Assembly (NCBI RefSeq): GCF_018398335.1
Contig: NZ_JAHBRX010000001.1
Coordinates: 3,464,001 to 3,528,000 of the forward strand
Source of the DNA: Chelatococcus sp. HY11
GTDB taxonomy: Bacteria; Pseudomonadota; Alphaproteobacteria; Rhizobiales; Beijerinckiaceae
DNA length: 64,000 nucleotides
Direction: 5' to 3'
The notes under the pieces are model-generated. The model searched no databases. It was not told where the DNA came from and worked only from the letters and a program-made list of their open reading frames with translations. Below, one piece after another: positions 7,901-24,078 of this stretch; within the stretch, counting starts at the first letter, position 1, and each line of letters begins with the position of its first letter. Made by a program: the position numbers and the translations under genes.

Positions 7901-8083
7901 CGTATCGACGACGGTCTTGGCGCTGGCGCCGGGGTAGCGCGTCGTTACTTGCACGGTCGGCGGCGTGACGTTGGGATATTGCGCGACCGGCAGATTGAAG
8001 AGCGCCACCGCGCCGATCAACACCATGACCAACGCCAGGACGTTGGCGAGGACCGGACGCTCGATGAAGAAGCGGGAAATCAT
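4916..8083 (-). CDS. RND multidrug efflux permease, HAE1 (AcrB/MexB) type
   Basis: This is the inner-membrane proton/drug antiporter of a tripartite efflux pump. Its 1055 residues match the usual HAE1 size. It begins MISRFFIERPVLANVLALV, the typical TM1 start. Two large periplasmic loops alternate with two sets of six membrane helices. The paired aspartates of the proton relay are in TM4 (GIVVDDAIVIVEG), with a Lys-bearing TM10 segment (LIALASKNAILIVEYA). The gene lies 25 bp after the membrane fusion protein gene and is surely co-transcribed with it. No outer-membrane channel or TetR regulator gene is adjacent, so a TolC-like partner must be encoded elsewhere. Confidence 0.96.
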   Translation of the reverse strand: MISRFFIERPVLANVLALVMVLIGAVALFNLPVAQYPNVTPPTVQVTTRYPGASAKTVVDTVALPIEQQVNGVDKMIYMQSTSASDGSYTLTVTFAIGTDPDFAQVLVQNRVSIAMSSLPQAVQVQGVTTQKKSTSILQFVTLSSPDARYDSLFLANYGVINLQNELARLPGVGNVNVFGAGEYAMRVWMDPQQMQARGLTPSDVISAIQQQSQEVTAGVVGMPPAPAGQNFQYTININGRLDNAPDFENIIVKVDNANGGQITRVRDIGRVELGAQTYSQTFTLNGKPAAGIGIFQLPEANAIAVAEEVRGKMEELSKSFPPGLVYGVPFDTTMFVNASITEVYKTLFEAGILVLVVILLFLQDWRAMLVPATTVPVTIIGAFAAMSAMGFTVNLSTLFAIVLAIGIVVDDAIVIVEGVSRHVEAGMPGQAAAEKAMDELFGPIIGITLVLMSVFIPAAFLPGLTGQLFQQFALVIAATALISAVNALTLKPTQCALWLRKPVPPEKRNAFYRGFNAIYDRCERAYSRLIAHMVHRSGFMVAIALVLIGFAGWALTRVPTSFLPTEDQGYVLIGAQLPDGASQERTNAVLAKVSQIAQETPGVENVIGISGISILDNSATLANAGVAYVVLKDWDTRGKAKGEDLLSIYEHLNRALQAVPEATTFVLVPPPIQGIGNASGFTMQTQVKDGSFNYQLLEAVTRQIVEAGSSQSGLQHLNTSFRAGVPQFEVRVDRVKAETLGVTVGQLFSTISGYVGSSYVTQFNAFGMTFQVYTQAESQYRVSPQDLLSLKVRAGNGTMVPIGTMVTVEPMTGPALISLYNLYPSATIVGTPAPGFSSGQALDLMGQIAASVLPPGTGYEWTAMSYQEMAVGSQIYVVFGLAILLVYFVLAGQYESWIQPLSVLLAVPLALLGTVGALVGLGIANNLYTQIGLILLIALASKNAILIVEYAREKRAEGMEIAEAAVEAARLRFRPIIMTSFAFILGVLPLVLATGAGASARKSIGIAVFSGMLASTCLAVLFVPSFFTVLQRFEEWRARRSAKPAPEAGSASEA

Positions 8084-8108
8084 GGGGGACCGCCTTCTGG
8101 ACGGAGCG

Positions 8109-9401
8109 TCAGGGCTTCGTGGGGGCAGGCGCGGCAGCCGGCGCAGGCACCGGGCTGGCGGGTGGCGGGCTGTTGGTCGCCGGGCTGTTGGTGGCCATGG
8201 TGCCGGTCTGAGGATTGACCTTGTTGCCGGGCACGGCGCGTTGGAGACCGTTGATGATCACCTTGTCCCCGGCTTCAATGCCCTTCTCGATAACCCGAAG
8301 CTGGCCTTCCAGCCGGCCCGTCGTCACGGGACGCTGCTGGACGACGCCGTCGGCGCCAACGACGAGCACGTAGCTGCCGAGCTGGTTCCGGCCGATGGCG
8401 GTATCATCCACGAGCAGGGCGTTCTGCGGCGGCCCGACGGGAATGCGAACCCGCACGAACAAGCCCGGTATCAGCGCCAGCTCCTTATTGGGGAAGACGC
8501 CGCGCACTTCGAGGGTGCCGGTGCTCGGATCGACCTGCGGGGCGATGTAATCGATCGTGCCGCGATACGGAAAGTCCGTCTGATCCTGCAGGCCGATCTC
8601 GATCGGAACATTGTGGATCTCGGTGAGATTGCGGCCAAGGCGGGCGAGTTCCGCCTTGATCTGGAGCACGATCTGCTCGCTGACCGTGAAATAGGTGTAG
8701 ATCGGGTCGACCTGCACGATCGTCGCGAGCTTGGTGGGGCCGGAATAGCCGACGAGCGCGCCGACATCGACCAGATGGCGCGTTACAATGCCGTCGAACG
8801 GCGCGCTCACCTGAGTATAGCCCAGGGTGATCGTCGCAAGCTGGATATTGGCCTGATCGGCCGCAATCTGCGCGGTTGCCTTGTCCAGGTTGGTCTTGGC
8901 GTCGTCGATGGCGCGCTGGGAGGCGAAGTCCTGCTTGCCGAGCTGCGCCTGTCGGTTGTACTCGGTTTGCGCGTTCGCCTGCGTCGCCTGCGCCGAGGCG
9001 AGCTCGGCCTTCTGCAGGTCAAGCTGTGCCTGGTACTGGTCACGCTGGATGGTGAACAGCAGCGTGTCCTTTTTGACGAGCGCGCCGTCCTTGTAGCTGA
9101 TGGCATCGAGGAAGCCCTGGACGCGAGCCTCCAGATCAACGGAGTTCACGGCCGCGGTGTTGCCGGTGAATGAGAGATAGCGCTGCACCGGCTGCTGGAC
9201 GGGCGTTGCGACATAGACTTGTGGCGGCGGCGGCGGAACATAGGTATTTTTGTCGTTGCAGGCCGCCAGTGTCAGAAGCATCAGCGCGACAGCGCCGACG
9301 CCCGGACCAGCCATGCGATGAGGCTGAGCGCTCGCGATACCGCGAAGACCCGGAACCTCGGCATGTTGGCCGGTTTGTGTGACAAGCCTCTCAAACGCCA
9401 T
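8109..9401 (-). CDS. RND efflux periplasmic adaptor (membrane fusion lipoprotein)
   Basis: This AcrA/MexA-type adaptor links the RND permease to an outer-membrane channel. A lipobox LTLAAC precedes Cys, so the mature protein is probably a lipoprotein. Then come the biotinyl-lipoyl half motif (LEARVQGFLDAI), an alpha-hairpin rich in Ala/Gln/Lys (QLDLQKAELASAQATQANAQ), the second lipoyl half (APFDGIVTRHLVDVGALVG) and beta-barrel/proximal domains. The C-terminus is a Pro/Ala-rich tail. The start is uncertain: ATG 9401 follows a G-rich stretch, GTG 9416 lies upstream, and ATG 9314 would give a shorter signal peptide. It is the first gene of the operon with the permease. Confidence 0.93.
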   Translation of the reverse strand: MAFERLVTQTGQHAEVPGLRGIASAQPHRMAGPGVGAVALMLLTLAACNDKNTYVPPPPPQVYVATPVQQPVQRYLSFTGNTAAVNSVDLEARVQGFLDAISYKDGALVKKDTLLFTIQRDQYQAQLDLQKAELASAQATQANAQTEYNRQAQLGKQDFASQRAIDDAKTNLDKATAQIAADQANIQLATITLGYTQVSAPFDGIVTRHLVDVGALVGYSGPTKLATIVQVDPIYTYFTVSEQIVLQIKAELARLGRNLTEIHNVPIEIGLQDQTDFPYRGTIDYIAPQVDPSTGTLEVRGVFPNKELALIPGLFVRVRIPVGPPQNALLVDDTAIGRNQLGSYVLVVGADGVVQQRPVTTGRLEGQLRVIEKGIEAGDKVIINGLQRAVPGNKVNPQTGTMATNSPATNSPPPASPVPAPAAAPAPTKP

Positions 9402-9625
9402 GCGAACCCCCAACACTGCCCGCGACTGCAGATTCCCGCCGCGCGGGCGGAATGCTCAAACCAAACAACTCCGAGCCCGCACTTCCTGCGGTCACGGAGG
9501 TCAAGAAGTCCAGGAGGCCGAGATACTTGGTCCCGGCCTGTTATTTCGCCACAGCTCGGGACCGCCGCGCAGCCGGCCGAGCATTTCTCGTGAAGCGAAG
9601 CAGCGTTCCCGCTTTCGGAAACGCT

Positions 9626-10222
9626 TTAGAATGGGTTGGCGACAACCTGATAAACGGCACGGCCATTGGAGTAGTAAGGCCTGTAGAACGTCGAACCGCA
9701 ACGATAGTAGCGCACGCCGCTTACCGTCGCCGATGTGCAGCCACCCGGCAGGCTGGCAAACATGGCGCCGATCGGTGCAGCCGTTGTGACAGGCGGTGGC
9801 GCATAATAGACAGGCGGTGGCGCCGCCGCGGCTGCCCCGAGCGCCGCTCCCGCCGCGAGCCCCGCCGCCGCGCCAACCGCGGCCGCGGCACCCGGTGATG
9901 GGCCGCCATAGCCCCAGCCATAACCCCAGCCCGGCCGAACGACCGGACCACCCCAGGCGGCTCCCCCATGCCAGGCGTGAAAGCCTCCGGCTGGCCCCCG
10001 CCAGACGCCACCACCGTGATAGGCAACCCAAGCCGACGCCGGCGACGTCGCTGAGACGACCGCAATGGCGGCTCCGGCCGCGGCGATTGCCAGTGCAAGG
10101 CGCCGCTTCAGCTTGCGTCGCGGGGAAGCGCCGCTGGTCACTATCGCGTCCTGACCAGTCATTTCACACCGCATCGGACATCTCTCTTCGCTTGAAACAG
10201 AAGGTCGTGGCATGTCGATCAT
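9626..10222 (-). CDS. Exported Gly/Trp/His-rich hypothetical protein
   Basis: This 198-residue protein has a signal peptide (basic KLKRR followed by a hydrophobic Ala-rich segment and SPASA). A Gly/Trp/His-rich segment (GWGYGWGYGG) is followed by a small-residue helix of glycine-zipper type (GAAAGLAAGAALGAAA). The C-terminal Cys-pair domain contains GCTSATVSGVRYYRCGSTFY. Similar short secreted proteins are common in Hyphomicrobiales and have no assigned function. Its start overlaps the stop of the upstream DUF2092 gene by 4 bp (ATGA), so the two are translationally coupled and may act together in the envelope. Confidence 0.8.
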   Translation of the reverse strand: MIDMPRPSVSSEERCPMRCEMTGQDAIVTSGASPRRKLKRRLALAIAAAGAAIAVVSATSPASAWVAYHGGGVWRGPAGGFHAWHGGAAWGGPVVRPGWGYGWGYGGPSPGAAAAVGAAAGLAAGAALGAAAAAPPPVYYAPPPVTTAAPIGAMFASLPGGCTSATVSGVRYYRCGSTFYRPYYSNGRAVYQVVANPF

Positions 10223-11382: not shown

Positions 11383-13161
11383 GTGAGCAAGACGAGCGAC
11401 GAAGACGTTCCGGCCGCGCCGGGCAAGGCAGGGACCCGGCCACGGCGTGCCATTTCCGAGCTGCGAAGCCAGCGTTGGTATGGTGATCCCGGCCTCCGGG
11501 CTTTCGGCCACCGCTCCCGCACCTTCCAGATGGGCTATACGCGCGCCGACTTCATGGGCAAGCCGGTGGTCGCGATCGTCAATACCTGGAGCGACATCAA
11601 CCCCTGCCACAGCCATTTCAAGCAGCGTGTGGAAGAGGTGAAGCGCGGCATCTGGCAGGCTGGGGGATTTCCCGTGGAGCTGCCGGCAATGTCCCTGAGC
11701 GAGCCCTTCGTCAAGCCGACGACGATGCTCTATCGCAATTTCCTCGCCATGGAGACCGAGGAACTCCTGCGCAGCCATCCCATGGATGGCGTCGTGCTGC
11801 TCGGCGGTTGCGACAAGACCACGCCGGCGCTCCTCATGGGGGCTATCAGCATGAACCTGCCCGCCATCTTCGTGCCCGCCGGACCGATGCTGCGCGGCAA
11901 CTGGGCCGGCAAGGTGCTGGGCTCCGGCAGCGACACCTGGAAATACTGGGCGGAGAAGCGTGCCGGCAACCTGAGCGAGCAGGCCTGGCAGGAGATCGAG
12001 GAGGGCATCGCCCGCTCGCCCGGCCATTGCATGACCATGGGCACGGCCTCGACGATGACGGCCATCGTCGAGACAATGGGGATGACGTTGCCGGGCGCCT
12101 CGTCAATTCCCGCACCCGATTCGGGCCATGCCCGCATGGCGTCGGAAAGCGGGCGCAGGATCGTCGACATGATCCTGGAGGACCTTAAGCCGAGCGATAT
12201 CCTGACGCCGGCCGCCTTCGACAACGGCATCACCGCCGACATCGCGCTGTCGGGCTCGACAAATGCCATCATCCACCTCGTGGCGATGGCGGGCCGCGTG
12301 GGGATCGACCTGCCGCTCGAGCGCTTCGACGAGATCGCCAAGCGCACGCCGGTGCTGGCGGACGTCCGTCCCTCCGGCCGCTTCCTGATGGAGGACTTCT
12401 ATTACGCCGGCGGCCTCCGGGGATTGCTCAGCCGCATCACCGACCACCTCGACCTGACCACGCTCACGGCCAATGGCCGCACGCTCGGCGAGAATCTCGC
12501 GGGGGCTGAGGTCTACAATGACGAGGTGATCCGCCCGCGCGACAATCCGCTGACGGCCTCGAGCGGCCTTGCCGTGCTCCGCGGCAATCTCGCCCCCAAC
12601 GGCGCCGTCATCAAGCCACCGGCGGCGGAGCCGCGCCTGCATGTACACACCGGCAAGGCACGGGTCTTCCGCAACTACGATGACATGGCAGCGCGCATCG
12701 ACGATCCGGCGCTCGATATCGACGAGACCTGCGTGATCGTGTTGCAGAACGCCGGGCCGCTCGGCGCCCCCGGCATGCCCGAATGGGGACAGCTGCCGAT
12801 CCCGCAGAAGATCCTTGCCAAGGGCGTGCGCGACATGGTGCGGATTTCCGACGCGCGCATGAGCGGCACGAGCTACGGCGCCTGCGTGCTCCATGTCTCG
12901 CCGGAATCCTACCTCGGCGGCCCGCTGGCGCTTGTGAAGGACGACGATCTCATCACACTCGACATTCCTGGCCGCCGGCTGGAACTGCATGTGGACGACG
13001 CCGAACTCGCCCGCCGCAAGGCGGCGTGGGTGCAGCCGAAACCCCACTACGAGCGGGGCTATGGCGCGATGTTCGCCAAGCATATAACGTCAGCCGACAA
13101 GGGCTGTGACTTCGATTTCCTGCACGCTGGCGCACCGACGGCGGAGCCGGAAATCCATTAA
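11383..13161 (+). CDS. IlvD/Edd-family sugar-acid dehydratase
   Basis: This is a Fe-S dehydratase of the IlvD/Edd family, 592 residues from GTG 11383 (AGGGAG six bases upstream). The cluster-binding Cys motifs read GGCDKTTPALLMGA and PGHCMTMGTASTM. These match the pentonate/aldonate dehydratase branch (arabonate, xylonate) rather than dihydroxy-acid dehydratase. The C-terminal swivelling domain ends with MRISDARMSGTSYG-like sequence, standard for the family. Expected chemistry is sugar acid to 2-keto-3-deoxy sugar acid plus water. It heads the 11-23 kb island, 459 bp before the transporter genes. The exact substrate cannot be assigned. Confidence 0.9.
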   Translation: MSKTSDEDVPAAPGKAGTRPRRAISELRSQRWYGDPGLRAFGHRSRTFQMGYTRADFMGKPVVAIVNTWSDINPCHSHFKQRVEEVKRGIWQAGGFPVELPAMSLSEPFVKPTTMLYRNFLAMETEELLRSHPMDGVVLLGGCDKTTPALLMGAISMNLPAIFVPAGPMLRGNWAGKVLGSGSDTWKYWAEKRAGNLSEQAWQEIEEGIARSPGHCMTMGTASTMTAIVETMGMTLPGASSIPAPDSGHARMASESGRRIVDMILEDLKPSDILTPAAFDNGITADIALSGSTNAIIHLVAMAGRVGIDLPLERFDEIAKRTPVLADVRPSGRFLMEDFYYAGGLRGLLSRITDHLDLTTLTANGRTLGENLAGAEVYNDEVIRPRDNPLTASSGLAVLRGNLAPNGAVIKPPAAEPRLHVHTGKARVFRNYDDMAARIDDPALDIDETCVIVLQNAGPLGAPGMPEWGQLPIPQKILAKGVRDMVRISDARMSGTSYGACVLHVSPESYLGGPLALVKDDDLITLDIPGRRLELHVDDAELARRKAAWVQPKPHYERGYGAMFAKHITSADKGCDFDFLHAGAPTAEPEIH

Positions 13162-13620
13162 CGCGGGAAGGGCGCGGGCGCTGGGGTCCGCGCCGCTTCT
13201 ACGGCTTTCGTCGAACATGAGCATGTCGCGCTGGCGTTCCAGTTGTATCGATGTAAGATGACATACGAGATAGGCTCCTGTCCGGTGCGTTGAACGGAGG
13301 ACTTGAGACGCGGCTTGATTGGCCGAACACCCTGGCGGAACGGCCCCGTCCCTGAGCCGGCAACTTGTCCTGTCAGGAGATGGTGAGTGAAGCCGGCGCA
13401 ATAGACGACCGCGGGGAACGGTCGCGTGGCAGATAATAGAGAGACAGCCGACACTGATCGATCCTGAAATCGAACGGTATTCGGACAAGTTCTTCGAGCA
13501 AGTCTTGCGTATGCGCGAGACCGTCTGGTTTTGACGATCTATAAAGTCAATATTTTTCTATGAAGACGTATAAATCGTCGTTGTCGTAAATAAGAATAAT
13601 TCACTGGGGAGTGAAAAGAG
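13162..13620. other. Gap before the transporter operon; likely promoter region
   Basis: No coding frame is convincing in this 459 bp. The last 100 bases are AT-rich and end with GGGGAG (13606-13611) nine bases before the ATG of the binding protein. A palindrome at 13531-13550 is listed separately. A second short inverted repeat, GACG-TATAAAT-CGTC, lies at 13565-13579. Confidence 0.55.
13531..13550. promoter_or_regulatory. Candidate operator TTGAC-N10-GTCAA
   Basis: A 5-10-5 inverted repeat overlaps a TTGACG hexamer that could act as a -35 box, about 80 bp before the binding-protein start. The position suits an operator for a dimeric regulator of the transporter operon. No regulator gene is adjacent. 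This is inference from symmetry only. Confidence 0.35.
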
Positions 13621-15540
13621 ATGATCTTTACGGCGAGAGCATTATTGCATTCTTGCGCGGCGGGGGCATTCCTGGTGGCCGCGCTGCCGGTCCTTGCGGC
13701 TGACTACAAGGAGGCGCCGACGCTGGCAACGTCCGTCAAGGCTGGCCAACTGCCATCGGTCGACAAGCGCCTGCCGGAGCATCCTGAGGTGGTGAAGCCG
13801 CTGAATGCCATTGGCACCTATGGCGGGCAGCTGCGGTTCGGCCTGCGCGGCTCGTCGGACCACAACCACATTCTGCGCATGGTCGGCAACCAGGGCCTGG
13901 TCCGCTGGGATCCGGAATATACGAAGATCGTGCCGAATGTCGCGGAGAAGGTCGATGTCAGCCCGGACGGCAAGGTCTTCACCTTCACCTTGCGCAAGGG
14001 CATGAAATGGTCGGATGGCAAGCCCTTCACGGCCGACGACATTCTCTTCAACGTCAATGATCTCATCCTGAATGCCGAATTCGCCGCGCCCCAGCCCCGC
14101 TACATGACGGGCGGCGTGCCGATGAAGGTCGAGAAGATCGACGATGCCACCGTGAAGTTCACTTTCACGGAGCCCTATGGCGACTTCCTGGCGGAACTCG
14201 CGAGCCCGCTCGGGCAGCATCCGGTGCTCTATGCGAAGCATTATTGTTCGCAGTTCCACCCCAAGTACAACGCCAATATCGCGGATACGGTCAAGGCGAA
14301 CAACGCTTCCGACTGGAAGAACCTGTTCCTGCAGAAATGCGGCGACATCGAAATCCCGGCGCGCTGGGGCAATGTCGATCGCCCGACACTTGACCCCTGG
14401 GTGGTGAAAGACGCCTACACCGGCGGGGCCACGCGTGTGATCATGGTGCGCAACCCCTATTTCTGGCAGGTCGATACGGACGGTAACCAGCTTCCCTATA
14501 TCGACGAGCTCAATGCGCCGATCGCGCAGGATGTGGAAAGCCTGATCCTGGCGGCCATCGGTGGCCGCATCGATTTCGGCCTTCGCCATCTCGACGCCCC
14601 GGCCAACCGCGCCGTGCTCGCGGAGAACCGCACCAAGGGCGGCTACGAGATGTTCGAGGCTTCGGCCGTCGGCGGCACCAATATGGTGATCAATCTCAAC
14701 CTGATGTCGAAGGACAAGGAGCTGAGGGAGCTCTTCAATAAGAAGGATTTCCGCATCGCCCTGTCGCACGGCATGAACCGCAAGGAAATCATCGATACCG
14801 CGCTACTTGGCGACGGCGAGCCCTGGCAGAACGGACCGTTCGAGAACCATCCCAATTTCCACAAGCGCATCGCAACGCAGTATCTGGAGTATGACGAAGC
14901 CAAGGCGAATGCGTTGCTTGACGGTCTCGGACTGACCAAGCGCGGCCCGGATGGCACGCGCCTTCTTCCGAGCGGCAAGCCGATCAAGTTCAAGATCGAC
15001 GTCATTCCCACGCTGCAGCCCGAGCAGGTGGACATGCTGCAGCTGATCGAGCGCCAGTGGGCCAAGATCGGCATCGACATGGATGTGAACTCGCTGGAGC
15101 GCACGTTCTTCTATGAGCGGACGTCCAACAGCAACGACCATGACGCGGCGGTCTGGGGTGGCCAGGCGAGCTGGGTGCCGGGAGAGATTCCGCAGCAGAT
15201 CGTGCCCGTGCACCACGACTCGCGCTGGGGCATCCCGTGGGTGCAGTGGTACAAGACGGGTGGCAAGCAAGGCGAGGAGCCGCCGGCTTCGGTGAAGGAG
15301 CGCATGAAGCTCTATGACGAGGCGCGCGCGACGACGGACCCGGAAAAGCGGCGGGCGCTGATGCTCAAGATCGCGGATATCGCCGCTGACGAGTTCGAGG
15401 TGTTCTCGGTGACCAAGGCCTTGCCGACTTACGGTATCGCCAAGACGAACCTCAAGAACGTCCCGGCCACGATGCCGAGCTCCTGGTACTATCCGACGCC
15501 CGCGCCAACCCTGCCGCAGACGTGGTTCTGGGCCAAGTAA
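13621..15540 (+). CDS. ABC transporter substrate-binding protein, peptide/oligosaccharide family (SBP_bac_5)
   Basis: This is the periplasmic binding protein of an Opp/Dpp-type importer: 639 residues with a signal peptide ending at VLAADYK. Just after it comes the segment YKEAPTLATSVKAGQLPSVD and then RLPEHPEVV, which marks a long subclass that I associate with sugar-derived ligands (for example AgpA of Sinorhizobium). The typical SBP_bac_5 block is VSPDGKVFTFTLRKGMKWSD followed by GKPFTADDI. It is the first gene of a transporter operon whose permeases and ATPase follow, and its sugar-acid enzyme neighbours suggest an oligosaccharide or uronate-containing ligand rather than peptides. Confidence 0.92.
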   Translation: MIFTARALLHSCAAGAFLVAALPVLAADYKEAPTLATSVKAGQLPSVDKRLPEHPEVVKPLNAIGTYGGQLRFGLRGSSDHNHILRMVGNQGLVRWDPEYTKIVPNVAEKVDVSPDGKVFTFTLRKGMKWSDGKPFTADDILFNVNDLILNAEFAAPQPRYMTGGVPMKVEKIDDATVKFTFTEPYGDFLAELASPLGQHPVLYAKHYCSQFHPKYNANIADTVKANNASDWKNLFLQKCGDIEIPARWGNVDRPTLDPWVVKDAYTGGATRVIMVRNPYFWQVDTDGNQLPYIDELNAPIAQDVESLILAAIGGRIDFGLRHLDAPANRAVLAENRTKGGYEMFEASAVGGTNMVINLNLMSKDKELRELFNKKDFRIALSHGMNRKEIIDTALLGDGEPWQNGPFENHPNFHKRIATQYLEYDEAKANALLDGLGLTKRGPDGTRLLPSGKPIKFKIDVIPTLQPEQVDMLQLIERQWAKIGIDMDVNSLERTFFYERTSNSNDHDAAVWGGQASWVPGEIPQQIVPVHHDSRWGIPWVQWYKTGGKQGEEPPASVKERMKLYDEARATTDPEKRRALMLKIADIAADEFEVFSVTKALPTYGIAKTNLKNVPATMPSSWYYPTPAPTLPQTWFWAK

Positions 15541-15610
15541 GGCTTCGAAGCGACACTTCGGAGTGAACGGTTTCGGTCGCGTAGCACGATGTTCTGGCCA
15601 TGTGCCGGTC

Positions 15611-15641
15611 AAGCCCCCCGGTTCCGCGGAGCCGGGGGCTT
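15611..15641 (+). promoter_or_regulatory. Intercistronic hairpin after the binding-protein gene
   Basis: AAGCCCCC (15611-15618) pairs with GGGGGCTT (15634-15641), with further GG/CC pairing inside and a TTCCGCGGAG loop. No U tract follows. Such hairpins between a binding-protein gene and its permease genes commonly protect the upstream mRNA or reduce read-through, so that binding protein is made in excess. Confidence 0.7.
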
Positions 15642-15741
15642 TCCGGGGCCAGCACATCTCCGATCTGTCACAGGAACGCCCGCAGCCGATAGCGGCAGTC
15701 AATCGGGCGTGCCAGAAGCCGATCGCTGGAGATGATCGCTG

Positions 15742-16728
15742 ATGCTCATCACCTATATCATTCGCCGCATCTTGTGGTCCGTGCCGTTTCTCTTCGTCGT
15801 GTCGCTGATCGCCTTTGCGCTCATCCAGGCGCCGCCCGGCGACTATTTGACGACATTCGCCGCGACGCTCGCGCAATCGGGCGATGTGGTCGACCAGGAG
15901 CGCCTCGAGCTCCTGCGGGAACGCTACGGCCTCGATCAGCCGTTCATCGTCCAATACTGGAAATGGATCACCGGCGTTCTCGTCGGCGATTTCGGCATCT
16001 CCTTCGAGTGGCAGCAGCCGGTCTCCAATCTCATCTGGGAGCGCATGGCCTTGTCCGTGACGCTGGCGCTCTCGACGCTGCTGTTCACCTGGGCGGTCGC
16101 CTTTCCCATCGGGGTCTATTCCGCCGTCAAGAAATACACGCTCGGCGACTATGTCATCACGGCGGTCGGCTTCATCGGCCTCGCCATGCCGAGCTTCCTC
16201 GTGGCGCTCGTGCTCATGTATATCGCCGTCGTCTTCTTCGGCAGCGATGTCTCGGGCCTGTTTTCGGAGGAGTTCGAGAAGGCGCCCTGGTCGCTGGCAA
16301 AGATTGGCGACCTCATGTCCCACCTCTGGCTGCCGGTGGTCATCCTCGGGCTTGGCTCCACCGCCAGTCTCACGCGCATCATGCGCGCCAATCTGCTGGA
16401 TGAACTCCACAAGCCCTATGTGACGACCGCCCGCGCCAAGGGGCTGTCGGAACTCCGGCTCATTCTCAAATACCCCGTGCGTATGGCGCTGAACCCCTTC
16501 GTATCGACCCTGGGCTGGGCATTCCCACAGCTCATCAGCGGCGCGGTGATCACCGCCTTCGTGCTCTCCCTGCCCACGTCGGGGCCGCTCCTGCTGCAAG
16601 CTCTGCTCGCGCAGGACATGTATCTCGCCGGTGCCTTCATCCTGCTGCTCTGCTGCCTGTCGGTCGTCGGCATGCTCGTCTCGGACATCCTGCTCGCGGT
16701 CATCGACCCGCGCATCCGCTACAGGTGA
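15742..16728 (+). CDS. ABC transporter permease, DppB/OppB type
   Basis: This is the first inner-membrane permease of the importer, 328 residues. It opens with the family signature MLITYIIRRILWSVPFLFVV (TM1) and has LIQAPPGDYL, the periplasmic loop with YGLDQPFIVQYWKWI, and about six membrane helices. The cytoplasmic EAA-like coupling loop reads YVTTARAKGLSE. Start ATG 15742. The next permease gene starts 15 bp after its stop, so the two are co-transcribed and should form the heterodimeric channel. Confidence 0.94.
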   Translation: MLITYIIRRILWSVPFLFVVSLIAFALIQAPPGDYLTTFAATLAQSGDVVDQERLELLRERYGLDQPFIVQYWKWITGVLVGDFGISFEWQQPVSNLIWERMALSVTLALSTLLFTWAVAFPIGVYSAVKKYTLGDYVITAVGFIGLAMPSFLVALVLMYIAVVFFGSDVSGLFSEEFEKAPWSLAKIGDLMSHLWLPVVILGLGSTASLTRIMRANLLDELHKPYVTTARAKGLSELRLILKYPVRMALNPFVSTLGWAFPQLISGAVITAFVLSLPTSGPLLLQALLAQDMYLAGAFILLLCCLSVVGMLVSDILLAVIDPRIRYR

Positions 16729-16743
16729 GGGGAGATCGCATCG

Positions 16744-17901
16744 ATGAGTGTCGTCGCCGATCCACATATCGATCCGAACGCCGATCCCCGGGCCATCGCC
16801 GGCGAGGACAGCGCGTCGCAATGGCGGTTGATCTGGGGCACCTTCCGTCGTCATCGTCTTGCGATGACCGGCGCGGTGGTGGTCATAGCCTTCTATCTCG
16901 TCGCGCTATTCACGGAGTTTCTGGCGCCGTTCGATCCCGACGCGCCGTCGTCGCGCGATGTCTACCATCCGCCGCAGATGATCCACCTGTTCGACACCAC
17001 CGCTGACGGAAGCTGGACCTTTCGACCTCATGTGAATGGCATGAAGCTGTCGCGGGACCGCTTCACGCTCAAGACGACCTTTGCACCAGACCCGGACAAG
17101 AAGATCTATCTCACCCTGTTCGGCAACGGCTCACCCTACAAGCTGTGGGGTTTGATCCCGATGGAGAAGCGCCTGATCGCCGCGGTCACGCCCGGCGAGC
17201 GCTTCTATCTTCTCGGCGCGGACCGGCTTGGCCGCGACATGCTGAGCCGAATCATCGCCGGAACGCGCGTCTCGATGTCGATTGGTCTTGCCGGCGTCGC
17301 CGTCAGCCTGTTGCTCGGCCTCGTGCTGGGCGGGTTGTCCGGCTATTACGGCGGCTGGGTCGATACCGGGGTCCAGCGACTCATCGAACTCAAGCTGTCC
17401 CTCCCGACAATCCCCATCTGGCTGGGGTTGAGCGCCGCCCTGCCGCAGGACTGGGCGCCGCTGACCCGCTATTTCGCCATCACCCTGATCCTGTCGCTCG
17501 TCGGCTGGACGGAGCTGGCGCGTGTGGTGCGCGGGCGTTTCCTGGCCCTGCGGACGGAAGATTTCGTCGTCGCCGCGCGGCTCGACGGGGGCAGCAAGGC
17601 GCGCGTCATCTTCCGCCATATGATGCCGTCGATGGTCAGCCATATCATCGCCTCGGTCAGCCTCGCCATCCCGGTCATGATCATCGCCGAGACGTCCCTG
17701 TCGTTCCTCGGCCTCGGCCTCCTGCCGCCGACGATTTCCTGGGGCGTGCTTCTCAAAGAGGCGCAGAACGTGCGCAGCATCGCCCAGGCGCCCTGGCTGT
17801 TCGCGCCAGGCGTGGCCGTCTGCGTCGCGGTTCTCGCTCTCAATTTCCTCGGCGACGGCCTGCGTGACGCGGCCGATCCCTATGCGCAGGAGGGCCGCTG
17901 A
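16744..17901 (+). CDS. ABC transporter permease, DppC/OppC type
   Basis: This is the second permease, 385 residues. It has an N-terminal cytoplasmic arm, TM1 (MTGAVVVIAFYLVALFTEFL), a long periplasmic insert (about residues 60-140, longer than in classic DppC) and then the membrane domain containing GADRLGRDMLSRIIAGTRVS, a signature of the OppC/DppC family. The coupling loop reads FVVAARLDGGSKARVIFRH. The stop TGA shares its final A with the ATG of the ATPase gene (TGATG), indicating coupled translation. The long insert resembles those of sugar-related members of this family. Confidence 0.94.
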   Translation: MSVVADPHIDPNADPRAIAGEDSASQWRLIWGTFRRHRLAMTGAVVVIAFYLVALFTEFLAPFDPDAPSSRDVYHPPQMIHLFDTTADGSWTFRPHVNGMKLSRDRFTLKTTFAPDPDKKIYLTLFGNGSPYKLWGLIPMEKRLIAAVTPGERFYLLGADRLGRDMLSRIIAGTRVSMSIGLAGVAVSLLLGLVLGGLSGYYGGWVDTGVQRLIELKLSLPTIPIWLGLSAALPQDWAPLTRYFAITLILSLVGWTELARVVRGRFLALRTEDFVVAARLDGGSKARVIFRHMMPSMVSHIIASVSLAIPVMIIAETSLSFLGLGLLPPTISWGVLLKEAQNVRSIAQAPWLFAPGVAVCVAVLALNFLGDGLRDAADPYAQEGR

Positions 17902-19685
17902 TGAGCGGGACCGCCGATCGTCTCCCCGGCTCGCCGAACGGCGCCGGAGGCTCGGGGCGTGAGCCACTGCCGGTTCTTGAGGTCAGGAACCTCGTCACCG
18001 AATTCGCCACGCGACGCGGCGTGTTCCGCGCGGTGGACGATGTGACATTGTCGCTCTATCCTGGCCGCACGCTGTGTGTCGTGGGGGAAAGCGGCTCCGG
18101 CAAGAGCGTGACGGCCCGGTCGATCCTTCAGATCGTCGATCCGCCCGGCAAGGTCGCCTCCGGGCAGGTTCTGCTGCACCGCCATCTCACGGCGCGGGGG
18201 CGCGGCGCCGAGAACACGGTGGATCTCGTCAGCCTCGATCCGCGCTCGTCGGCGATCCGCTCCATTCGCGGGCGCGACGTCGCGATGATCTTCCAGGAGC
18301 CGATGAGCTCATTGTCGCCGGTGCATCGCATCGGTGACCAGATCGGCGAGGTCATCCGCCTGCACGAGCATGTCTCGAAGAAGGAGGCGCGGGCGCGGAC
18401 CATCGAACTCCTGCGCAAGGTCGAGATTCCCCGGCCGGAGGTGGCGATCGACCGCTATCCCTTCGAGTATTCCGGTGGGATGCGCCAGCGCGCGGTCATC
18501 GCCATGGCATTGGCCTGCAATCCGGCGGTTCTGATCGCCGATGAGCCGACCACGGCGCTCGACGTGACGATTCAGGCCGAGATTCTGGCGTTGATCCGCC
18601 AGCTCCAGCGCGACAGCGACATGGCCGTGATGTTCATCACCCATGACATGGGGGTCGTCGCCGAGATCGCCGACGACATCGCCGTGATGCGTTTCGGCAA
18701 GATGGTGGAGCGCGGCGACGTGTTCTCGATCTTCGAGAGGCCACAGCACGACTACACGCGCCATCTGCTCAATGCCGTGCGGGAACTCGACCGGCCATCG
18801 GAGCGGCGCCTCGCCATGCGGGCGAAGGCGGCGCCCGGCAAGCCGATCCTCGTCATGGCGGACATGCGCAAGGAGTTCCCTTTCGCCACCGGCTTTCTGG
18901 GGTTGAAGCACGATTCCATCGTCGCGGTGGCGGACGCGAGCCTTGAGCTGAAGGCCGGTGAAAACCTCGGCATCGTGGGCGAGTCCGGGTCGGGCAAGAC
19001 GACGCTCGGCCGTTGCCTGCAGCGCGTTCATCCCGTCACATCAGGCCGCATTCTTTATACGGATCGCCACGGCAAGACGATCGATCTGGCGCCGCTGTCG
19101 GACAACCAGCTGAAGGAGCCCTGGCGCGACATTCGCATGGTGTTCCAGGATCCGTTCTCATCGCTCAATCCGCGCATGACCGTCGGGCAGATCATCGGCG
19201 AGCCGCTGCTCGTCAACGGCAGCTTGAGTGGCGCGGCTCTCAAGGCGCGCGTCGCGGAGCTTCTCGGGCTCGTCGGCCTGCCGGCCTCGGCGGCGGAGCG
19301 TTACCCCCATGCCTTCTCGGGCGGGCAGAGGCAGCGCATCTCGATTGCGAGGGCAATCGCGCCTGACCCGCGCATCATCATCGCCGACGAAGCGTCGTCG
19401 GCGCTCGATGTGAGCCTGAGGACCCAGATCCTCGATCTGATGCTCGACCTGCAGGAGCGGCTCGATCTCAGTTTCATCTTCATCAGCCACGATATCGCGG
19501 TGATCCGCTATTTCTGCGATCGCATCGCGGTCATGCACCGGGGCCGCATCGTCGAGACGGGCGAGACGGAGACGGTCTGCTCCAACCCCCAGCATGCCTA
19601 CACGCAGTCCCTGCTCTCGGCTGTTCCGGTCGCCGACCCGCGCCGGCGCGGCATGACGCATCGCTTTCGCTATCGTGAACCGTAA
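17901..19685 (+). CDS. ABC transporter ATP-binding protein, fused DppD-DppF type
   Basis: Both nucleotide-binding subunits of the importer are fused in a single chain of 594 residues. The first half has Walker A GESGSGKS, signature YSGGMRQR and Walker [13 protein letters not shown]. The second half has Walker A GESGSGKT, signature FSGGQRQR and Walker [13 protein letters not shown]. Each half ends with an oligopeptide-type C-terminal extension (for example [15 protein letters not shown]). The first half has an insertion between Walker A and the Q-loop ([18 protein letters not shown]). The gene overlaps the second permease by one base and lies 18 bp before the enolase-superfamily gene, which ties transport to catabolism. 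Confidence 0.95.
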
Positions 19686-19703
19686 AGTTGGATTAGTCGT
19701 CCC

Positions 19704-20963
19704 ATGAAGATCACCGCCGTCAAAACCTATCTGATGCAAGTCGGCTCGCGCCCGACAACGACGAGTGCCTCGAAGGAGGGAGCAGCCCAGGACAGTGCGG
19801 GAAAAGATAGCGCGGGACTTGGGGCCGATGCCGACTTCCGCGGATCGCGCAACTGGCTATTCGTGAAGATCTTTACCGACGAGGGCATCACCGGCGTCGG
19901 CGAATGCTCCGGCTGGCCGCGCGTCATCGAAACGGCGGTCAAGGACTATGCCTCGATACTCGTGGGTGAGGAGGCCAGCGACATCGACCGGCTGTGGCAT
20001 CGCCTCTACGTGGCCTCGATGGGCCACGGCGTGCTCGGCACGGTCGGTGGCGGTGCCCTGACCGGGATCGAGATGGCTTTGTGGGACATCAAGGGCAAGG
20101 CGCTCGGCCAGCCGGTCTGGAACCTGCTCGGGGGGCGCTTCCGCGATCGCATCCGCGTCTACGGCCATGCCAAGACACCGGAGCGCGCACGCGACCTGAT
20201 GGCACGCGGATATACCGGCGTGAAGGTCGGCTTCACAGGCGCCGTTGATGTTGATTGCGTGGCGGCGGTGCGTGACGCCGTCGGCGCTGATGTAGACGTG
20301 ATGGTCGACGCGCATGGCCCGTCCTGGATGACACCCCAGGACGCGATCATCGTCGGCCGCGCCCTCGAGCCGCTCGATCTTCTCTTCTACGAGGACCCGG
20401 TCGCACCCGAGAGCCTGGACGCGCTGGCGCGGGTGCGCGATTCCGTGGATATTCCGCTGGCCGCCGGCGAGCGTGTCAGCACGATCTGGGGCATTCGGCC
20501 CTACATCGAGCGTGATCTCGTCGATGTCATCCAGCCCGATACCGGCCGCGCCGGCGGCATCACGCAGATGCGCAAGATGGCGGCCATGGCGGAGGGACAT
20601 TTCATCACCATGGCTCCCCATTCCGGTTCGCTCGGACCGGTGGCGGAATTCGCGGCGCTCCATGTCATGGCGACCATTCCCAACGCGTTGATGCTGGAGC
20701 GTGTCGAGTTCGACTGGCCGGGCCGCTACGAGGTGGTTACGCCGGTGCTGAAGGTCGTCGACGGACATCTGCCGGTGCCGACCGCCCCCGGCCTCGGCGT
20801 CGACATCGTCGAGGAGGAAGTGGCGCGCTATCCGAGCCGCCGCAACGTCGCCGACATGCCGCCCGAGGACGGCTGGGCCTATGAGACGGGCACGGTCGGC
20901 GAGAACGTCTATTTCCAGACGCGCCTGCGACGGCGGGCGAAGCTGACGCGCACGGGCGGGTGA
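19704..20963 (+). CDS. Mandelate racemase/muconate lactonizing enzyme family protein (probable sugar-acid dehydratase)
   Basis: This enolase-superfamily enzyme has 419 residues: an N-terminal capping domain and a TIM barrel. Metal ligands are visible as Asp in VDAHGPSW, Glu in YEDPVAPE and Glu in AAGERVST. A His that can act as base is in APHSGSLGP. The position of the usual KxK motif reads GVKVGF, so only one Lys is present. The pattern is closest to galactonate/aldonate dehydratases of the mandelate racemase group. The capping domain carries an unusual low-complexity insert of about 25 residues (ASKEGAAQDSAGKDSAG). It is the last gene of the transporter operon. Confidence 0.88.
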   Translation: MKITAVKTYLMQVGSRPTTTSASKEGAAQDSAGKDSAGLGADADFRGSRNWLFVKIFTDEGITGVGECSGWPRVIETAVKDYASILVGEEASDIDRLWHRLYVASMGHGVLGTVGGGALTGIEMALWDIKGKALGQPVWNLLGGRFRDRIRVYGHAKTPERARDLMARGYTGVKVGFTGAVDVDCVAAVRDAVGADVDVMVDAHGPSWMTPQDAIIVGRALEPLDLLFYEDPVAPESLDALARVRDSVDIPLAAGERVSTIWGIRPYIERDLVDVIQPDTGRAGGITQMRKMAAMAEGHFITMAPHSGSLGPVAEFAALHVMATIPNALMLERVEFDWPGRYEVVTPVLKVVDGHLPVPTAPGLGVDIVEEEVARYPSRRNVADMPPEDGWAYETGTVGENVYFQTRLRRRAKLTRTGG

Positions 20964-21068
20964 GAGGGCTTTCGCCGCTTTGATCCTGCTCCCCGTTTCA
21001 TCCCCGGCGGCCGGCAAAGCCGGCCGGGAAGGGGATCCAGCTGGCTGCGACGCCATCGGCCGCTTCTT

Positions 21069-21116
21069 ACCTCTCCCGGTGGGGAGAGGTCGGGCGCGTA
21101 GCGACCGGGTGAGGGG
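21069..21116 (-). repeat. Dispersed palindromic repeat, copy 1
   Basis: ACCTCTCCCGGTGGGGAGAG at 21069 onward, ending GGGTGAGGGG, is the reverse complement of the pattern seen at 25230 and 46291 (CCTCACCC, GC-rich core, GACCTCTCCC, then GGGAGAGGT). A related block, CTTCTCCCCGCCGGGGAGAA, lies at about 21152-21171. It is non-coding and sits between two convergent genes (20964-21226). Confidence 0.75.
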
Positions 21117-21226
21117 CTTTTGACCCTGGAGCGCATACCCCTCATCCTGTCCTTCTCCCCGCCGGGGAGAAGGGACGCTCACGATGACGGGCCGCGTTCA
21201 ATGAGCTGCCCCAACAGTCCCGCCTT

Positions 21227-22234
21227 TCAATCGCGCGGCGCTGCCTCAGGCCCATGCGGATCGAGCCCGAGCGCCTGCATGGCGCCGATGATGTAGCCGT
21301 AGCAGAAGGCGAAGGCCGTGCCGCTTGGATCCGGGCCGGACACCTTGGGCGCATGATCCGGCATGATCATGTATTTGTAGCCGACCTCGGCATAGAGCTT
21401 GAGCGCGGCGACCATATCCATGTCGCCCTCGTCCGGGAAGGTCTCCATGAAATCGAGGCGCCTCCCCCGGATATTGCGGAAATGCACGTTGAAGAGCTTG
21501 CCGCGTTCGCCAAACCACCTGATGACATCGCCGATTTCGCGAGCGGGATCTTCCAGCATCTCGCCGACCGTGCCTTGGCAGAAATTGAGCCCGTGATACG
21601 GGCTCTCATGCATCGTCACGAAGCGCTTCAACCCCTCGACCGTGCCGAGCACACGCGTGACGCCGCGATAGCCCGGCGGGGTGTAAGGATCGTGCGGATG
21701 GCAGGCGAGCCGCACCTTCACGGCGGTGGCCACGGACACGACGCGCGCCAGGAAATAGTCGATCCGCTCCCAGTTCTCCTCCTCCGGGAGAATGCCGGCG
21801 CGTCCGGGCGCGGCTTCATGATCAGCCTTGTCCCAGCGGAAGGCTTCGTTGACCGAGCCGCCGCGCCCGGCCTCCGGCGCGGTGCGCGGAATGCCGATGA
21901 TGTTCATGTTGTATTTGACGGCGGGGATGCCGGCACGCGCCACGCGGTCCAGTAGAGCGCAGATCGAATCGATCTCCCGGTCGCGCTCTGGGCTTTGCCC
22001 GAGCAGGATATGCGGGCTGCGGCTCTCTTCGATCGGATGGGATTTCAGGGGCAATTCCACCATGTCGAGCACGAGACCGAAGCTCTCGATATGAGCGCGG
22101 TGCCGCTCGAGGTCGTCGAGTGTCCAGTCATGCGGGTTGCCGGGCGGATCGGCGCAGACGTGGCGGACGCCCAATTGCGCCATGACCCGGTAGTCGTCAT
22201 CCGTGCGGGCCTTGAACTGCGTGCCTACAAACAT
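21227..22234 (-). CDS. Mannonate dehydratase-like (UxuA family) protein
   Basis: This 335-residue TIM-barrel protein is of the UxuA type. It starts at ATG 22234, preceded by GGAGTGGAG. Recognisable blocks are VRLACHPHDPYTPPGYRGV, GLNFCQGTVGEM, FNVHFRNIRGRRLDFMETF and MIMPDHAPKV, which carry the His, Cys and Asp residues expected around the metal site. It is about 60 residues shorter than Escherichia coli UxuA (394), so the exact substrate may differ. UxuA converts D-mannonate to 2-keto-3-deoxygluconate. It follows the uronate dehydrogenase-like gene on the same strand and is convergent with the enolase-superfamily gene. Confidence 0.85.
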   Translation of the reverse strand: MFVGTQFKARTDDDYRVMAQLGVRHVCADPPGNPHDWTLDDLERHRAHIESFGLVLDMVELPLKSHPIEESRSPHILLGQSPERDREIDSICALLDRVARAGIPAVKYNMNIIGIPRTAPEAGRGGSVNEAFRWDKADHEAAPGRAGILPEEENWERIDYFLARVVSVATAVKVRLACHPHDPYTPPGYRGVTRVLGTVEGLKRFVTMHESPYHGLNFCQGTVGEMLEDPAREIGDVIRWFGERGKLFNVHFRNIRGRRLDFMETFPDEGDMDMVAALKLYAEVGYKYMIMPDHAPKVSGPDPSGTAFAFCYGYIIGAMQALGLDPHGPEAAPRD

Positions 22235-22302
22235 TCTCCACTCCTTAGTCGCGCCACGGCGGCCTGGCTGTCCCGCCGGCCTCGCGGGCAAGGCTCCACC
22301 GA

Positions 22303-22356
22303 CATCCAAGGCTCTAGTGGCATCCAAGGCTCAAGGGACATCCAAGACTTAAGGGA
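22303..22356 (-). repeat. Three tandem 18 bp units at the end of the Udh-like gene
   Basis: Units at 22303-22320, 22321-22338 and 22339-22356 read CATCCAAGGCTCTAGTGG, CATCCAAGGCTCAAGGGA and CATCCAAGACTTAAGGGA. The last unit spans the stop codon of the Udh-like gene (22349-22351). The unit length is a multiple of three. Confidence 0.85.
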
Positions 22357-23158
22357 CGTCATTGGGATCGGCGGTGAATTCCGTCGACACGAAGCGTGAT
22401 CCCTGGAACTCTTCCGCTATGGGATCGTCGCCCCGGATATGGCCGACCTCGGCAGCATAGGCTTCCGACTCATCCTGTGGATCGTAGCCGAGCCGGTAGG
22501 CGTTGCTGTTGTCCCACCAGGCCCGCTTGTTGCGTGAGATGCCGAAGACTATCTCGTTGGTATAATCGGCGGTCAGGCCAACGCTCACCAATTGCGCCAT
22601 GTCCCGGTGGGAAATCCAGGTCGAAAGCGCGCGTGCATCCGTCGGTGTTGGCGTGAAGGAGCCTATGCGCATGCCGAAGCCGCGCACGCCGTATTTATAG
22701 GCGTAGAGGTAGGCGAGATCCTCCATGAAGGCCTTTGACAGCCCATAGCGGCAGTCAGGCCGGTGCGGGCCGCGATGGTCCAGCGTTTCGCTGCGCCGAG
22801 TGAAGGCGATCGCGTGGTTCGAACTCGCATAGATGATGCGGTCGACGCCTTCGTGGCGCGCTGCCTCCCAGACATTGATCGAGCCGATGATGTTGGGCTC
22901 CAGGATCTCCGGCCAGGGGCTCTCGCGCGGGTTGCCGCCGCAATGGATGATGGCATCCACATCGCGGCAGGCGTGCCTGACGGCCTCAGCATCCTTGAGG
23001 TCGCATGTGACGCCTTCCTCATGCGACTGAACGTCTTTCAGTGGAATGATGTCAGACAAGATAAGGCGCTCATATCGACCCTGGAGCGCGGTCCGCAACA
23101 TCCCGCCGATGCGGCCGCCCGCGCCAGTGATGAGCACGCGATTGATGGTACGCGCCAT
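22349..23158 (-). CDS. Uronate dehydrogenase-like NAD-dependent epimerase/dehydratase
   Basis: This 269-residue extended short-chain dehydrogenase starts at ATG 23158, directly behind a strong ribosome binding site (GGAGGGGGAGGA). The NAD-binding loop is LITGAGGRIGG and the catalytic Tyr-Lys pair is in RYGLSKAFMEDLA. Several blocks match uronate dehydrogenase (Udh): EILEPNIIGSINVWEAAR, IIYASSNHAIAF, RIGSFTPTPTDARALSTWIS and a later WWDNS. Udh oxidises hexuronates to aldarolactones using NAD+. It is the first gene of the minus-strand pair with the UxuA-like gene. The match is strong for the family but not for a specific substrate. Confidence 0.85.
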   Translation of the reverse strand: MARTINRVLITGAGGRIGGMLRTALQGRYERLILSDIIPLKDVQSHEEGVTCDLKDAEAVRHACRDVDAIIHCGGNPRESPWPEILEPNIIGSINVWEAARHEGVDRIIYASSNHAIAFTRRSETLDHRGPHRPDCRYGLSKAFMEDLAYLYAYKYGVRGFGMRIGSFTPTPTDARALSTWISHRDMAQLVSVGLTADYTNEIVFGISRNKRAWWDNSNAYRLGYDPQDESEAYAAEVGHIRGDDPIAEEFQGSRFVSTEFTADPNDVP

Positions 23159-23571
23159 TCCTCCCCCTCCAGATCCGCCGTTCTGTGCAACGGTCAAGCC
23201 GCTCCGGGTCTCGATGCCCGGTCACGGTATGTCTGACGGAATACCTGTCTCGCCGATTGGCCAGTCTCTCCATTCTGCTAGGAGGTCGGCCGAATGTCGA
23301 CGGGAAAGACGTGAGGCCAGATGAAAAGCGTCGCCCACGACCGGATGCTGGCCGTGAAGCGTTTGTTGTGTCCATCGGCGGACTGCGGCTCACCACGCGG
23401 TATTAAGCCATCGCTGGCGCAGCGCAAGCCCGGCAGTATTCGTCGCCGCCATCGGAATTATTTCGGAACAGGCTTTAACGGAGAACGTTATTCGCTGGAG
23501 CCTCGGGAGAAATTTCGCCTAAGCCTTAAAAGCTGGGGCTTGTCCATTTTCCATATATTGTGGAGGGTATA
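23159..23571. other. Divergent intergenic region, no gene seen
   Basis: This 413 bp gap lies between the Udh-like gene and the YciF-like gene, which are read away from each other. A 5-10-5 inverted repeat, GGTAT-N10-ATACC, lies at 23226-23245, about 70 bp upstream of the Udh-like start, and is a possible operator. The last 100 bases before 23572 are AT-richer and should hold the ferritin-like gene's promoter. Confidence 0.45.
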
Positions 23572-24078
23572 ATGGGTTTTTTCGCGAAAGACATAAAGTC
23601 AATGGACGATCTGTTTGTCCATACGCTGCAGGACATTTACTACGCTGAGAAGAAGATCGCCAAAGCTTTACCGGACATGGTGAAGAAGGCGAGCAACGCT
23701 GAACTCAAGAAGGGGTTCGAAACCCATCTCGGTGAAACGAAGAATCACATCGCCCGTGTGGAGGAAGTCTTCCGCATGCACGGCGCTCAGGCGAAAGCCG
23801 TGGAGTGTCCGGCGATTGACGGAATCATCGAGGAGGCCGAGGAAATTGCCGGTGATGTCGATGATCCGCGCGTTCTTGACGCGGCCTTGATCGCGGCGGG
23901 CCAAGCTGTCGAACACTATGAGATGACACGCTATGGCACGCTTGTGGCCTGGGCGAAGGAACTTGGTCGCGACGACTGCGCGAAGGTGCTCCAGCAGAAC
24001 CTTGATGAGGAGAAGGCGACGGATCAGAAGCTGACAAAGCTGGCCGTCGGCACCGTCAATATGCAGGCGGCGGAGTAG
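23572..24078 (+). CDS. Ferritin-like DUF892 (YciE/YciF) family protein
   Basis: This 168-residue four-helix protein contains the family start FFAKDIKSMDDLFVHTLQDI followed by YYAEKKIAKALPDM. Acidic and His residues of the helical bundle are visible (ETHLGETKNHIARVEEVF, AVEHYEMTRYGTL, DEEKATDQKLT), consistent with a di-metal ferritin fold. These proteins are often induced by general stress; their substrate is unclear. ATG 23572 follows GGAGGG at close spacing; a GTG twelve bases upstream is less likely. It is single, with no partner gene. Confidence 0.92.
   Translation: MGFFAKDIKSMDDLFVHTLQDIYYAEKKIAKALPDMVKKASNAELKKGFETHLGETKNHIARVEEVFRMHGAQAKAVECPAIDGIIEEAEEIAGDVDDPRVLDAALIAAGQAVEHYEMTRYGTLVAWAKELGRDDCAKVLQQNLDEEKATDQKLTKLAVGTVNMQAAE

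Follow-up and report, generated by a model that had tools for sequence, protein, structure and literature searches.

A putative hexuronate uptake and oxidation cluster in Chelatococcus with a UxuA-like enzyme as candidate aldarate dehydratase

In the oxidative hexuronate pathway of Agrobacterium and Pseudomonas, the route leads from a uronate dehydrogenase (Udh) via a lactone to glucarate dehydratase or Gci, then to KdgD and α-ketoglutarate semialdehyde (α-KGSA) dehydrogenase (PMC6353982 and PMC5114784, in the excerpts used here). A solute-binding protein (SBP) for this class of sugars is SPH1118 from Sphingomonas sp. A1; it binds pectin as well as polygalacturonate, and crystals have been obtained with galacturonate (GalUA) and with unsaturated trigalacturonate (excerpts of PMC9314435 and PMC7055323). 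Here, we examine a cluster of eight genes in a Chelatococcus genome (6.95 Mb, 6 contigs), located in a stretch of 64,000 nucleotides (C1:3464001-3528000) that we call the window. The genes encode an IlvD/Edd dehydratase, an SBP, two permeases, a fused ATPase, an enolase-superfamily enzyme, a UxuA-like protein and a Udh. We will argue that the cluster is probably a module for hexuronate uptake and oxidation, a variant of the known oxidative pathway in which the UxuA-like protein would serve as a hexarate dehydratase. Its oddest member is this enzyme, and not the overall combination of genes.

The cluster shares its Udh with the oxidative pathway, and the genome contains KdgD and a D-glucarate-dehydratase-type enolase elsewhere. 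Unlike that pathway, the cluster has no lactonase or kdgD gene, and it adds an SPH1118-type importer, the window enolase and the UxuA-like enzyme; some relatives' clusters also include SMP-30 or beta-propeller lactonases. The closest solved relatives of the Udh are 3ay3 (223.6 bits; titled NAD-dependent epimerase/dehydratase), 6mfh (Mutated Uronate Dehydrogenase, 218.6 bits) and 3rft (Uronate dehydrogenase, 192.6 bits). Its match to solved uronate dehydrogenases supports the oxidation of a uronic acid, as suggested in the initial annotation. The protein exceeds none of the NCBIfam cut-offs, the best model being Azf with 151.9 bits against a cut-off of 400.

The only protein of the genome above the KdgD cut-off (TIGR03249, 407.9 bits vs 373.95) is encoded at C1:3221782-3222675, ~253 kb from the cluster. 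Its gene follows directly on an enolase gene in a two-gene unit (C1:3220558-3222684; positions 7559-9685 of locus L137), and this enolase shows 76-79% identity to two A. tumefaciens entries, 1rvk and 4hch, of which the latter bears the title D-glucarate dehydratase; its predicted structure (6 sequences, mean pLDDT 50.4) was used for entry titles and identities, not for the fold. The unit probably supplies the lower steps of the route. As lactonase candidates there are eight SMP-30-family matches, and among 21 aldehyde dehydrogenase (ALDH) matches (best 518 bits) none is above the NF042993 cut-off of 770.

In the proposed mechanism, the importer would bring in a uronate-type ligand, and Udh would, by family knowledge, convert free D-glucuronate or D-galacturonate to an aldaro-lactone that opens spontaneously or by a lactonase. 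The UxuA-like and enolase-superfamily enzymes would then remove water from the aldarate to yield 5-dehydro-4-deoxy-glucarate. From this, the distant KdgD would form α-KGSA, which an aldehyde dehydrogenase would oxidise to α-ketoglutarate. No kinase or aldolase is expected in this scheme because the route runs via KdgD, which the genome encodes; the early remark that the cluster region has no regulator, aldolase or kinase is borne out. The suggestion of an undescribed pathway with an unusual end, on the other hand, is not supported, since the genes fit the known oxidative route, for which the genome also encodes KdgD. We also considered a complete pathway within the cluster. This was ruled out, as the gene list and Pfam show that genes for a lactonase, KdgD and a semialdehyde dehydrogenase are all missing from the cluster region.

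We now turn to the UxuA-like protein. It scores below both UxuA cut-offs of NCBIfam (101.9 vs 191 bits and 66.8 vs 199.55 bits), and the identity as mannonate dehydratase that the first description might imply is thus not supported. With the D-mannonate dehydratases of S. suis (3ban), E. faecalis (1tz9) and E. coli (4eac) it has in common the fold, the metal ligands and an adjoining histidine, and these residues (H179, C219, H251 and D293, followed by H294) are found in 35/35 UxuA-like sequences. The identity to the three enzymes is, however, 18-25% in structural alignments. In UxuA, the tyrosine of the C-terminal PGY motif has a catalytic role. This residue is present in 28/28 canonical sequences, whereas all 35 UxuA-like sequences have a phenylalanine (F308) instead, together with a new invariant arginine, R124; Y314 is also new. 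Relatives are named mannonate dehydratase in public records, but the protein belongs to a separate subfamily for which this name is probably wrong. An ordinary mannonate dehydratase was rejected as a candidate owing to the sub-cut-off scores and the loss of the tyrosine.

These data bear on the classical isomerase-type glucuronate route, in which the UxuA-like protein would simply be a mannonate dehydratase, and what we read as Udh would be an SDR protein with a different dehydrogenase function. Membership of PF03786, the public names and the sub-cut-off match of the SDR protein to Azf, a glucose-6-phosphate dehydrogenase, would fit this route, but the missed UxuA cut-offs, the altered tyrosine, the three canonical UxuA genes elsewhere in the genome and the frequent kdgD neighbours described below make it very unlikely. 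It is also improbable that the same metal site serves an isomerase or epimerase acting on an aldarate, aldaro-lactone or keto-acid, rather than a dehydratase. One UxuA-like match (L145, G100:C1:1351541-1352560) lies inside a 944-aa open frame that contains one TAG.

The family, with 248 confirmed places, occurs in many Rhizobiaceae and sporadically in other Alphaproteobacteria. The neighbourhoods were surveyed in the best 80 of these 248 loci, a sample biased to close, mainly Rhizobiaceae, sequences, with kdgD called at ≥50% identity. A kdgD gene lies within 500 bp of the UxuA-like gene in 43/80 loci and within 10 kb in 49/80. For 42 of the 43 adjacent cases there is no match to four enolase queries or to IlvD within 10 kb; the search did not extend to GarD/UxaA-type dehydratases, but the annotated examples L089, L090 and L092 show none of these beside the UxuA-like gene. 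Among the matches listed, no canonical UxuA is within 10 kb of KdgD, the nearest being about 12 kb away (G217), as checked by eye. The 80 loci further include a FadR-type regulator in 51 cases, a different Opp-type importer in 57, a lactonase in 13, the window-type SBP in 7 and the window-type enolase in 3, while 12, some of them short contigs, have neither kdgD nor an importer SBP. At the order level, the UxuA-like gene is found in 10/297 genomes, and KdgD in 9 of these 10 (our genome included) compared to 45 of the 287 others. Two distant relatives (55-59% identity; L091:9131-12518 and L093:10001-12774), on A. tumefaciens and Pannonibacter plasmids, stand beside GH28 genes, and in one case there is an SMP-30 lactonase gene as well.

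For the substrate, we infer a hexarate, with D-glucarate as the first candidate, and not mannonate. When the Fischer strings are compared from C6, D-glucarate equals D-mannonate at C2-C4, and galactarate equals D-altronate; D-mannarate fits the stereochemistry as well as D-glucarate does. The galactarate dehydratase GarD and the altronate dehydratase UxaA are homologous. By analogy, UxuA and the UxuA-like enzyme may parallel UxaA and GarD, with one aldonate and one aldarate dehydratase on each fold. We see an even chance that the UxuA-like proteins constitute a family of their own in which the UxuA fold serves the dehydration of C6-aldarates. They would attack D-glucarate (or D-mannarate) at the C6 end and thereby supply KdgD. 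The same KdgD-feeding dehydration is carried out by the A. tumefaciens D-glucarate dehydratase (1rvk/4hch), an enolase-superfamily enzyme of different fold, the homologue of which adjoins kdgD here, outside the window cluster.

To our knowledge, the UxuA fold has not been assigned to aldarate dehydration before. An open-access literature search gave no aldarate role for the UxuA-like family in the portions of PMC6353982, PMC5114784 and PMC4495286 that were available. If the assignment is true, the annotation of a family of at least 248 members, many from plant-associated bacteria, would be corrected, and aldarate dehydration would gain an additional fold. The importer family would likewise gain uronates as a ligand class in place of "oligopeptides". 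Both D-glucarate and galactarate have attracted interest in biotechnology.

The top solved relative of the window SBP is SPH1118 (7ver; 566 bits, 44.5% identity, 268/602 aligned residues). The two transporters have in common the SBP family, Opp-type permeases and five of the seven contacts to the first (reducing-end) galacturonate, namely N53, R57, E216, R466 and W594. R47 and R294, which contact the MES ligands in the same pocket of SPH1118, are also retained. For the second and third sugars, in contrast, all six alignable contacts are lost (H323, A326, G351, W512, G513 and S620 in SPH1118; L295, S298, N324, D483, V484 and F592 in the window SBP), and R438 falls in an alignment gap. From sequence, then, the SBP, the two permeases and the fused ATPase are an importer of the pectin-binding SPH1118 type, with most of the putative one-uronate pocket conserved. 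The SBP probably recognises one uronate residue, and the ligand would either end there or continue in a way unlike oligogalacturonate. This supports the uptake of a uronate-type ligand that was first proposed.

An alignment of 21 SBPs comprises 16 close proteins (≥47% identity) and five more distant ones. Fourteen of the close proteins have the full set of seven residues (R47, N53, R57, E216, R294, R466 and W594), and the other two differ by R57K only. N53 and E216 are lost in four of the five distant ones, while the fifth (L211) has both. The retained pocket, and the fact that enolase and Udh or lactonase genes recur beside the importer in several families, argue against an oligopeptide transporter operon placed next to unrelated sugar-acid genes by chance. 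Such a chance arrangement would fit the Opp-family annotation and the reported increase in transcription of SPH1114-1118 in oligopeptide-containing yeast-extract medium (PMC7055323, as excerpted), but we consider it very unlikely.

As to conservation, the nearest named relative found, Chelatococcus asaccharovorans DSM 6462 (L009), matches the cluster in all eight genes and in their order (90-98% identity), and the right-hand flank is also collinear. The complete set occurs in 1/80 UxuA-like loci; L012 has five of the eight genes on a 9.3-kb contig terminating within the ATPase gene. Because none of 11 other genomes of the family has the UxuA-like gene (E ≤ 1e-60), the cluster is patchy within it. 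The expectation that the eight genes would be co-conserved has to be divided: sub-sets do recur in other families, but the full set was seen in Chelatococcus only.

The importer SBP (E ≤ 1e-120) is present in 12/385 class-level genomes. Eight genomes other than our own have it at ≥50% identity, and in five (L197-L201) the UxuA-like gene is in the same cluster. Two more (L196 and L202) have the enolase and an RraA-like gene, one also with Udh, and the last (L203) has neither UxuA-like nor enolase/RraA-like genes. More complete sets are seen in L211, a single 19.1-kb contig with kdgD, Udh, FadR, the importer with a 38%-identical SBP, an SMP-30 lactonase and UxuA-like, and in L010, with Udh, SMP-30, UxuA-like, three enolases, RraA-like, ALDH, the importer and a kdgD cut by the end of the stretch. 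Among 266 plasmid records with an importer match, five were examined. On the Rhizobium binae plasmid, the importer, the enolase and a second enolase named "galactarate dehydratase" face a divergent group of DHDPS-family, SMP-30, Udh and FadR genes. On that of Bosea, the importer is accompanied by Udh, IclR, a lactonase, two enolases and a member of the glucarate-dehydratase family; on that of Ensifer by Udh, FadR, an enolase and SMP-30; on that of A. tumefaciens by a DHDPS-family gene, SMP-30 and an enolase named "galactarate dehydratase", with no Udh seen; and on that of Rhizobium N621 by the enolase and FadR only. The plasmid "galactarate dehydratase" proteins exceed no NCBIfam cut-off, and the name rests on the records.

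It is important to point out the observations that weigh against the proposed hexuronate module. Udh is within 10 kb of the UxuA-like gene in only 4/80 loci, and most of the kdgD-adjacent loci are from Rhizobiaceae with common ancestry. Canonical UxuA also co-occurs with KdgD genome-wide (41/123 vs 13/174), and for this reason genome-level co-occurrence is weak evidence and adjacency alone discriminates; moreover, UxuA-like genomes exist without KdgD (G067) and without Udh (G187). In L010, L011, L012 and L037, UxuA-like is found together with two enolases, one of the glucarate-dehydratase type and one of the kind that records name galactarate dehydratase, so that UxuA-like may perform a third reaction there. 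The GH28 genes beside the two distant relatives point towards galacturonate. On the importer side, the first-uronate contacts R496 and E505 of SPH1118 are Q and D in the window SBP (R496 is retained in 11/16 close SBPs, E505 in 0/16), the L210 SBP is encoded near a UxuA-like gene and has lost N53 and E216, and SPH1118 itself binds free GalUA at high concentration only (PMC9314435, as excerpted). Finally, the KdgD cut-off is not reached by the DHDPS-family genes that adjoin the importer in R. binae and A. tumefaciens.

Of the two other dehydratases, the window enolase is closest to the galactonate dehydratase model (255 bits, below the cut-off of 311), and enolases of its type lie directly 3' of the ATPase gene in L009, L010, L012, L196, L202, L230, L231 and L232. 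The IlvD/Edd protein exceeds the cut-off of the L-arabinonate dehydratase model NF009559 (994.5 vs 882 bits). The proposal of dehydration enzymes of several folds is upheld, with IlvD/Edd, enolase-superfamily and UxuA-like members. IlvD is the most loosely associated and least conserved member of the cluster, being within 10 kb of UxuA-like in 2/80 loci (L009 and L012) and found also in L208. Its substrate is probably a pentonate or another aldonate, and the gene may be a mere neighbour of the system.

The L-arabinonate dehydratase score would also fit the import of a uronate-containing oligosaccharide (an aldobiouronate or a pectic or xylan fragment) that is cut inside the cell, with Udh acting on the uronate and IlvD on the oxidised form of the released pentose. 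The ligands of SPH1118 and the GH28 genes next to UxuA-like relatives would agree with this. The SBP has not, however, retained the second- and third-sugar contacts, the cluster contains no glycoside hydrolase and the genome no GH28 match (other hydrolase families not searched), and IlvD is seldom conserved with the remaining genes. We therefore regard this alternative as rather unlikely. A separate unit at G000:C1:3994440-3999040, with consecutive genes for an aldehyde dehydrogenase, an IlvD-type dehydratase (60% identical to the window IlvD) and a DHDPS-family protein, is likely an oxidative pentose operon.

The layout of the cluster is given in Table 1. All eight genes are intact, Pfam supports every assignment, and the arrangement initially described is confirmed. 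The UxuA-like gene probably starts at 22234, the position at which homologues begin.

Table 1. Features of the cluster, in window positions
Feature	Position	Strand	Basis
IlvD/Edd dehydratase, L-arabinonate dehydratase type	11383..13161	+	NCBIfam NF009559
Intergenic region, likely promoter of SBP-permease-ATPase-enolase operon	13162..13620	.	Sequence reading
Periplasmic solute-binding protein (SBP_bac_5), SPH1118-type	13621..15540	+	Solved relative 7ver/SPH1118
Opp/Dpp-family permease B	15742..16728	+	PF00528, PF19300; conserved beside SBP
Opp/Dpp-family permease C	16744..17901	+	PF00528, PF12911
Fused two-domain ABC ATPase	17901..19685	+	Two PF00005 stretches; 1-base overlap with preceding gene
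Enolase-superfamily (mandelate racemase subgroup) acid-sugar dehydratase	19704..20963	+	PF13378, PF02746
UxuA-like TIM-barrel enzyme, proposed aldarate dehydratase	21227..22234	-	PF03786
Uronate dehydrogenase (Udh)	22349..23158	-	Solved uronate dehydrogenases

There are likely two convergent transcription units, SBP-permease-permease-ATPase-enolase on the plus strand and udh-UxuA-like on the minus strand. In the former, a gap of 201 bp follows the SBP gene and the remaining gaps are ≤18 bp. The IlvD gene ends 459 bp before the SBP gene, and the sequence between them is partly conserved in L009. No common operator motif exceeding shuffled sequences was found among the regions upstream of SBP, udh and ilvD, and promoter and terminator scans yielded no more than shuffles. 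FadR/GntR or IclR regulators adjoin the importer in several relatives.

The cluster is adjoined by ordinary genes for an AcrB-type RND pump and an HlyD-type adaptor (window 4919-9416, minus strand). Just past udh, a DUF892 protein is encoded (23560-24075, plus strand), which is collinear in L009 with no evident link to the cluster. The acid-sugar repertoire of the whole genome is very large, with 33 enolase-superfamily, 8 IlvD/Edd and 19 DHDPS-family matches. Elsewhere in the genome, a relative (63%) of the L010 "galactarate dehydratase" enolase adjoins another Opp-type importer (L141:3845-10627). Another Udh-like gene, with 47% identity to the L010 Udh, is accompanied by an enolase, an RraA-like gene and permeases of the Opp type (L214, G000:C1:1771000-1790900), possibly a second uronate or aldarate locus.

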